Source of the DNA: Streptomyces sp. NBC_00557
Lineage (GTDB): Bacteria; Actinomycetota; Actinomycetes; Streptomycetales; Streptomycetaceae
Assembly: GCF_036345995.1 (NCBI RefSeq)
Contig: NZ_CP107796.1
Span: forward strand, 8,432,001-8,496,000
Direction: 5' to 3'
DNA: 64,000 nucleotides
Part shown: in pieces, positions 9,534 through 56,358 of the stretch
Layout of the letters: each line of letters starts with the position of its first letter
Position numbering within the stretch: position 1 is the stretch's first letter
Translations under genes and position numbers: made by a program
The notes under the pieces: generated by a model
The model's database searches: none
The model's input: the letters and a program-made list of their open reading frames with translations, nothing else
What the model was told of the DNA's origin: nothing

Positions 9534-10444
9534 GGGTCCGTCTTCAAACGGATCTTGCCCACAGCAGGAATGACGCGAGCGTGACCGCCGGCCTCGTAGG
9601 GGGTGGCGGTCTTTTCGTATCGGGTGGCAATGCCGCGGAAGCCCTTGAGCCGGTTGAAGCAGTGCTCGATCATGTTGCGTCGGCGGTAGATCTGCCGGTC
9701 GAATCGTGGTGGTGTGCCGCCGCGGCGGACGCGGTTGTAGCGATGCCGTTGTTGGTCCGCCTTCTCCGGGATGGTGTGTGCGATGCCGCGTTTCACGCAG
9801 GTAGGAGCGGAATCCACGGGAGCTGTAGGCCTTGTCTGCGATGGCACGGTCGGGCCTGCAGCGTGGTCGGCCCAGGCCGGTGCGGGGAACGCGGATGCGT
9901 TCGAGTAGCGGGCGCGCAGATGCTGTCGTGGCGTTGGCCGGGCGTCAGCAGGATCGCGAGCGGGCGTCCTTTGCCGTCGCAGGCGAGGTGGAATGTGGTG
10001 GTCGGTCCGCCTCGGGATCGACCGAGGGCGTGATCGTCCGGTTCGTCCTGGTGGCGCTGCCCTGTTTTCAGCCGGTGCCGACGTGCTGGTGGGCGCGGAC
10101 GACGGTGGAGTCGATCTGGACCAGCCGGTCGATGTCGTCGGCTGCGTCCGCCTGGGCGTGGATCTGCTGCAGAGCCCGGGTGAAGACGCAGGCGAGGGCG
10201 TAGCGGCGGAAGCGGGTGTAGACCGTTTTCCACGGCCCGTAGCGGTCCGGCAGGTCACGCCAGGAGACACCGGTCCGGATCGTGCAGACCATGCCGTTGA
10301 GGACCTGCCGGTCCGCGACGCGTGGCGGCCCCCTGACGGCACGTGGTATCAGCGGAGCGAGTAACTCCGCTCCTGGTCGGTGAGTTCATGGCGACGTATC
10401 ACCTGACCATGATCCACCGCGCGATGATCTTTGAAGCCGGACCC
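9534..10444 (-). mobile_element. Decayed IS5-family element with both ends visible
   Basis: GGGTCCGTCTTCAAA begins at 9534, and its near-inverse, TTTGAAGCCGGACCC, ends at 10444, so both terminal repeats are present (one mismatch in 15). The flanking bases are TA on both sides (9532-9533 and 10445-10446), a likely 2-bp target duplication as in the IS427 group. The 911-bp size fits. The transposase inside is broken, so the element cannot move on its own. Confidence 0.8.
9560..10425 (-). pseudogene. IS5-family (IS427 group) transposase with several frameshifts
   Basis: Pieces in three frames rebuild one protein: VIRRHELTDQERSYSL (N-terminus near 10400), MVCTIRTGVSWRDLPDRYG and DIDRLVQIDSTVVRAHQHVG (10068-10292), then EPDDHALGRSRGGPTTTFHL, then RGIAHTIPEKADQQRHRYNR and FDRQIYRRRNMIEHCFNRLK (about 9580-9790). 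The change after VRAHQH is where these elements normally use a -1 programmed shift; the others are mutations. DDE residues D (IDST), D and E (MIEHCFNR) can be seen or placed. Confidence 0.75.
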
Positions 10445-26051: not shown

Positions 26052-26270
26052 TCATAGCCACTCGTTGATGGCTGCGACCAGCACGGTCGCGTGATGGCGG
26101 ACGGCGAGTTTGTCGTACCTCGTGGCGACGACACGATAGCGTTTCAGTCGGTTGATCTCGCGTTCAACGGCGTGCCGCTGCTTGTAGTCGGCCTTGTCGA
26201 ACTTCGGCGGGCGGCCACCCTAGGCCCGGTCGGCACGGACCTTGTCCGGCCGGGAGCGTGGTTGGCCCTA
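26052..26270 (-). pseudogene. IS5-family transposase, C-terminal remnant with TAG
   Basis: The minus strand reads RPDKVRADRA, TAG, GGRPPKFDKADYKQRHAVER, INRLKRYRVVATRYDKLAVR and VLVAAINEWL, ending at TGA 26054-26052. The TAG falls where related proteins have Tyr, or at the junction of an internal deletion; the segment that normally lies between RADRAY and GGRPP is absent. Confidence 0.8.
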
Positions 26271-53842: not shown

Positions 53843-54332
53843 GGGGTTGCGCTGGAAGTTGCGTTAGAGGTTGCGACCACTGTTGCGCGAGCTCTTCGGA
53901 GCGCCGCGCGTTTGCGCAGGTCACCGCGCCCGTAGCAGCGTGGTCGGGGCTCTGACATCCCCCTCAGCGCACCCTGCGCCGCCCCTGCCTGGAGGAGAAG
54001 GGGGGAGGGGACGGGTGGGCGAGCGGGAGCGCCTCGGGGATCGGGGCGCCGGCGGTCCCCTCTCGCGCGTCGGCGGGGCCGCGCGCGTCCCCGGCCGCTG
54101 TGAGCGTCCGAGGAGAAGGCGAGGGATACGGAGCTGCCGCGAGTGAGCTGTCTACTGCGGGCGCGGGCGCTCGGCGACACGGAGCCAGCTTGGTCTGGTT
54201 CGTGTGAAGGACGACGTCCTGGTGCTGCACGCCATGCGCTGGCCGGACGAGGTCCGCGACCCCGCCGAGCTGCTGCCACCGCCCGCGACGCGGAAGACGA
54301 CGGGCCGTCACGTCGGCCGCGGACCGCCTAGC
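53843..54332. other. Debris before the IS5 element
   Basis: About 490 bases. A plus-strand fragment at 54204-54285 (VKDDVLVLHAMRWPDEVRDP) has natural composition but no ends. The rest shows only shadow frames. Confidence 0.4.
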
Positions 54333-54346
54333 CTAGGCGGTTTCGT

Positions 54347-55218
54347 TTGGATCAGCCGGACGTTGGTCCGGGTGTGCCGTTGAGTGACGCGCAGTGGGCT
54401 CGGATCGAGCCGTTACTCCCAGACCGAACACCGAAGCGGGGTGGCCGGTGGAGGGACCACCGGGAGGTGATCGATGCGATCGCCTTCAAGTTCCAGACCG
54501 GTACGCAGTGGGTCTACCTGCCGGAGAAGTACGGCAACTGGCGGGGCGTCTACAACCGGCTGCGTATGTGGGCCATCGACGGCACGTGGGAGCGGGTGTT
54601 CACCGCGCTGATGGCCCAGGCCGACGCCGACGAGGACCTGAACTGGGCCGTCTCAGTGGACTCCACCATCGTGCGTTCCCACCAGCACGCGGCCGGGGCC
54701 CGCAAAAAGGGGCGCTGGCTGGCGAGCCGGACGACCACGCCATCGGCCGGTCCCGCGGCGGACTGACCACGAAGATCCACCTTGCTGCCGACGGCCGCTG
54801 CCGGCTCCTGGCCTTCGTCCTCACCGCCGGACAGGCCGGGGACGCGCCCGCTTTCGCCGAGGTTATGGCTCGCCTGCGCGTTCCCCGGCCCCGTGGACGG
54901 CCCCGCACCAGACCGGACGTGGTCCTCGCCGCCAAGGCGTATTCGTCACGCGCCATCCGGAAACACCTGCGCAAACGAGGCATCCGCGCGGTGATTCCCG
55001 TCCCGGCGGACCAGCAAGGCCACCGGCTGCGGCGGGGCGGTCGGGGCGGCAGACCCCCTGCCTTCGACCGTGAGGTCTACAAGCAGCGCAACACCGTTGA
55101 GCGGTGCATCAACCGCCTCAAACAGTGGCGAGGCATCGCCACCCGCTACGAGAAGACCGCGACGATATAGCAGGCCGGACTCCACATCGCGGGGATCTTC
55201 CTCTGGTCCGCACGATGA
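54347..55218 (+). pseudogene. IS5-family transposase, two frames, with late TAG
   Basis: The first frame (VPLSDAQWARIEPLLPDRTP, DAIAFKFQTGTQWVYLPEKY, AVSVDSTIVRSHQHAAGARK) ends at 54766. The second frame enters by a -1 slip on AAAAAGGGG at 54703-54711 and gives EPDDHAIGRSRGGLTTKIHL, VVLAAKAYSSRAIRKHLRKR and EVYKQRNTVERCINRLKQWR. A TAG at 55168-55170 replaces the Tyr of TATIY; the frame then continues QAGLHIAGIFLWSAR to the normal TGA 55216-55218. Catalytic D, D and E are present and only 16 residues are lost, so activity is still possible. Confidence 0.8.
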
Positions 55219-56010
55219 TCCAGACAGAGGATGGCGCAAGGGGCAGCGGTCAAGCGGGGCCTGGCCCAGCTCGCTCTCCCTAGCACAGCTACGCCTCGTC
55301 GAAGTACAACGGCGACAGCCTGGCTCCCCGCTCCGAATCATCCACGTCAGGCGGCGTGACGTGGGCGAGGTCACCGTCGATCGGGATGTCGAACTTCCGG
55401 CCGATCTCAGCGATAGCAACTCCAACCCGGCCGCGCAGCATACCCAGCGCCTGAAGCCCATACGCCCATTGGACCCGATCCCGATCCCTGGCCCACCGAA
55501 TCGGATCCCGACCGTTGGGCGGGACATCCGGGAATGTTCTATCGGTCAACCTGCGTGCTGACTCCACATCGGTCAGCCACTGCCTCACAGCGGCGCGCAT
55601 CGCGCGCACTTGCTCCCGCAGTTCCTCGGACTCGCACCGCTCGACCTGCTCGTTCAGATAGGTACGCAGCGCCTCGATGGACCCCCAGGACCCATTTTCC
55701 TCTTCGAGGTCATAAGGCGCATGGAGTACCCGGTGGTCCTCCAAGCGGAGCAGGATCGATCTTGCCCGCTCGCGCTCACTCTGGCTGAACTCCACGCTGG
55801 CGCTCTGCCCGAAGAACGAGAAGCTGATCGTCCGTAACCGACCGCGCCAGCGCCAGCGCCACTGCTTGAACATCCCCACCTCCAGCTCTGCCAACAAGAG
55901 CCAGCATTTCGCACTCCCAGTGGAGAGACCAGGCCAACCCTATTGGCCGGGGGTAGTGCAGTCAGTCTCCGCCCCGGTAGCAGAGAACGCGCACGTACGC
56001 ACGATGATCC
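55209..56010. repeat. 13-bp direct repeats framing the cargo
   Basis: CGCACGATGATCC at 55209-55221 and at 55998-56010. The first is the end of the transposase gene, where the terminal repeat would normally follow; the second is joined to the actual terminal repeat. The segment between them (55222-55997) contains the DUF6650 gene. Confidence 0.9.
55289..55873 (-). CDS. DUF6650-family protein (IS cargo)
   Basis: 194 residues from ATG 55873, with GGAGGTGGGG directly upstream. The N-terminus WRWRWRGRLRTISFSFFG, followed by RARSILLRLEDHRVLHAPYD, matches the DUF6650 pattern (GRLxGISFxFGG ... FLEDRRVLYxPYE). Then an acidic helical part (EALRTYLNEQVERCESEELR) and a C-terminal region with FDIPIDGDLAHVTPPDVDD. 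Function unknown. GC is lower than in the surrounding genes. It is read opposite to the transposase and lies wholly between the 13-bp repeats. Confidence 0.7.
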   Translation of the reverse strand: MFKQWRWRWRGRLRTISFSFFGQSASVEFSQSERERARSILLRLEDHRVLHAPYDLEEENGSWGSIEALRTYLNEQVERCESEELREQVRAMRAAVRQWLTDVESARRLTDRTFPDVPPNGRDPIRWARDRDRVQWAYGLQALGMLRGRVGVAIAEIGRKFDIPIDGDLAHVTPPDVDDSERGARLSPLYFDEA

Positions 56011-56023
56011 GAACGAAACAACC

Positions 56024-56358
56024 TAGTCGAGGACGCCCAGCTCGGTGTCCGGCCGGCAGTGCGGGCAGGCCGCGACGCCCTCGGTCAGCGCCCGCAGCGC
56101 GGTCGACCGGTCGACACCTTTGCTGCGTCCACCGGCGTTCCAGCAGCCGCCGACGTGGACGTACACGGCGGCCGCGTCCTGGTTGAGGCCGAGCTCCAGC
56201 AGCCAGTCGGGCACGGGCGGCCGCGCCCGCTCACTGCGCTGCTGTTCCGCCTGATGCTGTTCAGCCGCCGCAATCTGCTGCCGGACCCGGTCGAGGGACA
56301 GCACCAGTCAGGTCTCCAAGGTGAGGAGATGCGGCAGGTCGGGCGGCAGATCGTTCAC
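56024..56358 (-). pseudogene. DUF6233-family protein with internal TGA
   Basis: GTG 56358 opens NDLPPDLPHLLTLET, then TGA at 56310-56308 where the family has Trp, then LVLSLDRVRQQIAAAEQHQ, WLLELGLNQDAAAVYVHVGG and CPHCRPDTELGVLD with TAG 56026-56024. The C-H-C cluster and PDTELG are the usual DUF6233 end. The CTAG duplicated by the IS5 insertion supplies the stop codon. Translation could restart at LVLSLDR, giving a shorter protein. Confidence 0.7.

Follow-up and report, generated by a model that had tools for sequence, protein, structure and literature searches.

The 64-kb stretch of DNA analysed here (G000:C1:8432001-8496000; hereafter, the window) comes from a Streptomyces genome of 9.0 Mb, where it lies close to the end of the large contig. 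An IS5-family element occupies its positions 54337-56022, is flanked by CTAG at each end, and carries a DUF6650-like gene between its transposase and its right terminal repeat. Sequence comparisons make it likely that this element belongs to a Streptomyces IS5 group in which single passenger genes are common, and that these passengers are captured and moved as proposed below. Comparison of the copies places the passenger between the IS body and an outer repeat with CTAG and finds units with the same passenger at unrelated sites, and the passenger-bearing elements seem to move as units. The first-pass annotation of this DNA had described a single, simple insertion sequence with cargo (tIS); the tIS layout stands, whereas the isolated case gives way to a series of passenger-bearing variants.

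Structure of the window element

The ends of the element, its terminal repeats and the CTAG on both sides were placed exactly by the first-pass annotation, as judged from the sequence and from pattern matches with 0 mismatches (Table 1), and the repeat-plus-CTAG pattern occurs at just these two places in the window, again with 0 mismatches each, vs. 0.03 predicted by shuffles. The target copy at both ends is a palindrome, so that duplications of 2 and 4 bases are indistinguishable. The 13-bp word CGCACGATGATCC is indeed present twice and frames the extra segment exactly; the earlier reading of this word as the normal junction between gene end and terminal repeat needs correction, however, as it is exact at the body/repeat junction in just 2 of 100 relatives (within 3 mismatches in 62 of them). 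The remnant of the inner right repeat differs from the repeat core at 5 of 15 positions. The DUF6650-type gene reported on the opposite strand between the transposase and the right terminus is an open reading frame over its full length. With its passenger gene between terminal repeats, the element has the layout of a tIS; no second complete IS copy lies beside its one body, as would be found in a composite transposon.

Table 1. Features of the passenger-bearing element and its target in the window
Feature	Position	Strand	Basis
Left target site copy, CTAG	54333..54336	.	read in sequence, pattern match
Left terminal repeat	54337..54354	+	pattern match with 0 mismatches; half of inverted pair
Transposase first frame, DUF4096 and IS5 family model	54347..54766	+	ORF, Pfam, NCBIfam
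Transposase second frame, DDE domain, ending at premature stop	54394..55170	+	ORF, Pfam, NCBIfam
First 13-bp word, IS body end and start of lost inner right repeat	55209..55221	+	
Extra segment with passenger, 776 bp	55222..55997	.	
Passenger gene, 202 codons, DUF6650-like (remote), stop codon toward IS body	55289..55897	-	
Second 13-bp word, interpreted as what is left of the right end of a second IS (short stub)	55998..56010	+	
Outer right terminal repeat	56005..56022	-	pattern match with 0 mismatches
Right-end CTAG, includes stop codon of adjoining DUF6233 gene	56023..56026	.	
Target gene, DUF6233 protein, stop codon within target CTAG	56023..56304	-	ORF, Pfam

Both transposase frames score above the cut-off of the NCBIfam IS5 model (NF033580), which bears out the two-frame transposase described earlier, and DDE_Tnp_1 and DUF4096 lie above their Pfam cut-offs, identifying the enzyme as an IS5-type DDE transposase. 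The catalytic part of the second frame begins at about 54704, and a AAAAAGGGG run lies at the overlap of the two frames, where frameshifting of the kind that marks two-frame transposases of the IS427 type may occur. The window copy is probably unable to move by itself because the position of the second catalytic Asp is occupied by Ala (of 102 copies, 65 have Asp at this position, six including the window's have Ala, and 11 give no residue) and because its premature stop, the sole stop there among the 102 copies, falls at a position with Tyr in 89 of them. The best other match to the element in its own genome covers <30% of it at 69% identity. Partial matches to the same transposase (69-74%), likely remnants of related ISs, were also seen at window positions 9645-9761, 9973-10157 and 26110-26187 (minus strand).

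The DUF6650-like passenger protein

We use the name DUF6650-like because the window protein scores under the Pfam cut-off for DUF6650 (13.4 vs. 27 bits) and the label rests on its relatives; membership in the family is thus remote. Specifically, all 19 homologues listed carry a precomputed PF20355 (DUF6650) label, and our own Pfam scan matched PF20355 to four of 20 sequences at E<=0.01, the window protein not being one of them. The best relatives are Streptomyces proteins with 96% identity at most, and a Paraburkholderia protein named DUF6650 matches at 28.5% identity. Between four copies of the passenger dN/dS is 0.11-0.27, and the protein is therefore maintained by selection. The gene is rare, being found in 4 of 392, 2 of 293 and 3 of 391 genomes (overlapping draws that include the window's own genome). 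Structure prediction gives a helical bundle (mean pLDDT 76.5), for which neither PDB nor viral matches were obtained at E<=0.001; PADLOC gave no hit on the window protein and NCBIfam gave it no name. Two candidate matches were rejected, i.e., a PADLOC hit to BrxC (E 0.002) among 20 relatives, taken as chance, and DinB_2 on the window protein (E 0.026), which is below the cut-off.

A recent report names five domains of unknown function, DUF6650 being one, for which validated systems now indicate a part in phage defence (PMC13092281). The window gene is possibly defensive, this report on a family of which the protein is a remote member being the one outside support. Among viral contigs searched for the cargo, 65 stretches matched a pattern and none encodes a relative, and phage records searched with the cargo protein gave no match. 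In Paraburkholderia pOLGA3 (L219, 5708-7179), a DUF6650 gene overlaps a tyrosine recombinase gene and lies upstream of a P-loop NTPase gene.

The same passenger at other loci

Scanning genome contigs for the DUF6650-like passenger yielded four loci. In Streptomyces sp. MUM 178J the whole window unit is found again (83% identity over 1603 alignment columns), with a left repeat with CTAG, two open transposase frames, an inner right repeat kept with 1 mismatch, the passenger, and an outer right repeat with CTAG, between flanks that are unrelated to those of the window unit. This further cargo-bearing copy, CTAG-bounded and at an unrelated site, supports the claim of the first-pass annotation that the cargo lies within the transposition unit, and the claim is further backed by sister elements with other passengers, which have repeat-plus-CTAG ends and unrelated flanks as well. 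Among the other loci, the 3' end of the transposase and the passenger are all that remain in Ru71; S. violens has what we read as a shrunken IS remnant ending in a CTAG that includes the stop codon of the DUF6650-like gene; and the S. sabulosicollis match, which lies close to the end of a contig, is limited to residues 102-202. Beside the gene and IS remnants of S. violens and Ru71, an outer repeat was looked for and not detected. Plasmid records matched the window element (467 records) and the MUM 178J element (381 records), with no single place covering 80% of either.

Passenger-bearing copies in the IS5 group

Since sister elements with other genes were seen while bare copies were being checked, we surveyed the group more widely, searching 392 Streptomyces genomes (of which 147 matched at E<=1e-100), selecting 100 near-full-length copies and looking for the repeat plus CTAG on each side of every copy. 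Extensions of 256-992 bp at one or both ends were found in 39 of the 100 copies (the strict set), spread over 37 genomes and with exact CTAG on both sides in 33. Relatives that are bare at both ends make up 45 copies, and the other 16 have one end unresolved or a weak repeat. Past the body, within 1.3 kb, the repeat with exact CTAG was found 44 times in the correct orientation and twice in the wrong one (102 copies), vs. 0.2 per shuffle in a control of 20 mononucleotide shuffles of the 102 copies. The second transposase frame is open for at least 140 codons in 28 of the 39 passenger-bearing copies and in 42 of the 61 others. Outside the strict count are left extensions >1.3 kb (L162, L202, L208), the right ends of L150 and L202 (weak repeats), L126 (63 bp, no gene), and L120 and L142 (>1.3 kb). 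In the annotations that we examined, such mobile units appear only as "IS5 family transposase" or "hypothetical protein".

The window's own genome also contains MITE-like pairs with the same terminal repeats, at G000:C1:6295330-6295530 and 7058863-7059063 (L230-L231; 201 bp) and at G000:C1:6512592-6512649 and 7017952-7018010 (L232-L233; 58-59 bp); across this genome, the repeat pattern gave 14 matches vs. 0 in the control. At G000:C1:8643900-8644900 (L235), the same genome holds the end of a passenger type encoding a small membrane protein, with repeat and CTAG, that matches the left insert of L136 at 80% over 108 bp.

The strict set comprises 21 passengers (14 right, 7 left), with the window's being additional. 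We scanned 20 passenger proteins against Pfam, leaving out the L136 and L178 types, and found above cut-off Barstar, SnoaL_4 (two passengers), Glyoxalase, DUF4253, Cys_rich_CPCC, SMI1_KNR4 (SUKH), MerR and DUF6924, as well as mycothiol-S-transferase (MST), whose element was not counted in the strict set because its outer repeat is weak; DUF1963 matched one passenger below its cut-off, and nine of the 20 had nothing. NCBIfam named none of seven survey passengers. Barstar and SUKH are families of immunity proteins of toxin systems. Counting the window's passenger and the weak one, 20 of 23 have their stop codon pointing toward the IS body (p=0.0005), the exceptions being L140, L168 and L178; for the Barstar, MerR and DUF4253 passengers the strand was set by Pfam against the base-composition score, and that of L184 is nearly ambiguous. 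The passenger ORF of L140 seemingly takes its stop codon from the TGA in the repeat at the outer right end.

A proposed route of passenger capture

We propose that the IS transposase would cut at the outer repeats, so that body and passenger move together, and that the units would insert at CTAG, often at the stop codon of a gene. The window copy, though unable to move by itself, could be moved by a related transposase. Capture would begin with two direct IS copies flanking a small gene, one of which would shrink to a stub; the bypassed inner repeat would then decay, locking the passenger in. Consistent with this proposal, the outer repeats look functional and the inner ones mostly do not: outer repeats average 2.4 (right, n=30) and 1.4 (left, n=15) mismatches of 15, compared to 1.2-1.4 at bare ends, and inner repeat remnants average 5.5 and 6.6, compared to 8.1 for background, a contrast that is favoured because outer repeats were picked by a mismatch limit. 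Intact inner repeats also exist (0 mismatches in L126, L134 and L150; the MUM 178J copy is given above).

A few copies retain traces of another IS end, which points to capture of the passenger between two IS copies in direct orientation. Stubs of the IS 3' end adjoin the outer repeat in L134 (42 nt), L126 (~17 nt) and the window and MUM 178J copies (~10 nt), and in L142 a 162-nt match to the IS 3' end does so. In the latter element (oriented 849-2677), a 499-codon ORF encoding a membrane-protein-like product lies between the IS body and this 162-nt fragment of a second direct copy, which bears a perfect outer repeat; the arrangement as a whole is possibly an intermediate. No second-copy stub was recognisable in the other right-extended copies.

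Alternatively, a slip similar to that of ISEcp1, in which the transposase skips its own end and uses a look-alike beyond the neighbouring gene, might have created the units; this would be a rival for their origin, not for their mobility, and we regard it as rather unlikely. It would fit the nearly intact inner right repeat of the MUM 178J copy, the lack of a stub in most right-extended copies, and several poor outer repeats (6 mismatches in L150 and L202; 5 in L173, L203 and L204). However, the majority of outer repeats match the quality of bare ends, and transposase sequence is retained beside those of L142 (162 nt) and L134 (42 nt).

It is also conceivable, but unlikely in our judgement, that the outer end was supplied by a MITE or a solo repeat of this IS lying close by, or that passengers were swapped by homologous recombination between bodies. 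The four short repeat pairs of the same type (58-201 bp) in the window's own genome would provide such ends, and body and passenger histories disagree for several sets. Specifically, in the tree of bodies the window and MUM 178J copies do not group, and the SnoaL, 116-aa, 131-aa, CPCC and weak MST sets are split, whereas the VOC, 250-aa, L178 and DUF6924 sets each hold together, as the TM set nearly does; this discordance could reflect recombination of bodies, repeated capture or tree noise. On the other hand, the outer ends of the window, MUM 178J, L126, L134 and L142 copies bear transposase 3' sequence, which the four MITE-like pairs lack. We favour capture between two direct copies.

Evidence for probable movement of passenger-bearing elements as units

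Among the surveyed elements, 39 same-passenger pairs fall into 12 sets, and 38 of these pairs can be aligned across almost the entire element (82-99% or 100% identity), with the weak pair L150/L202 aligning in part only. Flank similarity within 3 kb was absent in 38 of the 39 pairs, and in the sole exception (L146/L155) a 498-bp stretch matches, at distances from the element that do not correspond. One genome contains both L203 and L204, at two places, with no difference between them over 1335 bp. L166, which bears its passenger on the left, interrupts a gene; a paralogue of that gene in the same locus is unbroken except for small gaps. When the joined flanks of 82 survey elements were compared to the fetched loci, three hits resulted, each in the element's own locus (L166, L113 and L126); that of L166 was informative, that of L126 is a 98-bp stretch across the joint (84%), and that of L113 is a neighbouring IS.

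These data bear on two further explanations. If chance had simply placed an IS next to a gene and a piece of a further IS, and the three had never moved jointly, a dead transposase in the window and IS remnants beside the DUF6650-like gene in S. violens and Ru71, with no outer repeat detected, would be readily accounted for, but not the same unit with CTAG ends at unrelated sites in the window genome and MUM 178J, nor the identical passenger-bearing copies L203 and L204 in one genome; we therefore consider mere neighbourhood very improbable. Later insertion of the passenger into the IS, as an independent element that duplicated a 13-bp target, is hardly plausible, since, despite the exact framing of the segment by a 13-bp direct repeat, another copy bears the cargo too (contrary to the scenario that the first-pass annotation had set against its own reading), the segment has no terminal repeats of its own besides this word, and the word matches the IS's own end, with longer stub versions in L134 and L142.

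Relation to known systems and implications

An insertion sequence is usually regarded as a selfish element with a single gene, and one that bears a passenger as a side form. In ISEcp1 and the transposable modules (TMo, IS1380 family), a single IS bypasses its own end and mobilises an adjacent gene. As far as the accessible parts of the sources go, the likeness to these modules (one-IS modules are discussed in PMC3281130) is that one IS moves a neighbouring gene; here, in contrast, the outer ends are mostly true IS repeats, the units occur at many sites, and the inner ends are mostly decayed. A tIS is defined as an IS whose terminal repeats enclose a passenger gene that has nothing to do with transposition (PMC9330008, PMC7986276, PMC3129680), a layout that the window element shares; the difference is that passengers are present here in 39 of 100 copies from one IS5 group, of 21 kinds and at either end, whereas the consulted portion of a review of the IS6 family mentions a single tIS for that whole family. 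Passengers have also been reported, in the portion available, in Tn3-family elements of Ralstonia (PMC7371123). Composite and IS26-type pseudo-compound transposons, in the descriptions accessible to us, resemble the start inferred here in having two direct IS copies around a gene, but the window element and the 39 strict units have one body and at most a stub of a second copy. Mobile insertion cassettes and MITEs similarly consist of a gene or spacer bounded by IS repeats, as do the MITE-like pairs of the window's genome, but the window unit retains its transposase gene, though broken. Thus, passenger-bearing ISs are already known, and it is their frequency and variety in one IS5 group for which we found no comparable description among the papers listed in searches of the open literature.

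With a gene in about two-fifths of the surveyed copies, some 20 passengers, inner-end remnants and a few stubs, the group opens the origin of tISs to direct tests. The same observations suggest that Streptomyces may exchange small genes for immunity, defence and detoxification by a route that has been overlooked. A broader reading, which we advance only tentatively, is that the IS5 group might constitute a standing gene-capture system of Streptomyces, with insertion at CTAG of stop codons next to small genes, outer ends supplied by a second copy, self-moving cassettes, change of passengers and recombination of bodies. If this were true, single immunity-like, defence-like or detoxifying genes would travel as cassettes in a transposase-driven counterpart of integron cassettes.

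Target sites

The exact empty site of the window element was not found in 71 genomes or the plasmid set; in relatives, Ku and DUF6233 genes adjoin without the IS, one of them with a single uninterrupted CTAG there. More generally, flanking CTAG ends coincide with stop codons at 22 of 163 element ends vs. 10 of 246 control ends (base-composition coding test, p=0.001), and insertions thus appear to favour stop codons, although selection against gene-breaking insertions would look identical. On the left side of the window element, positions 54160-54331 match Ku-protein genes in plasmids, and this flank looks like a truncated Ku gene next to the insertion.
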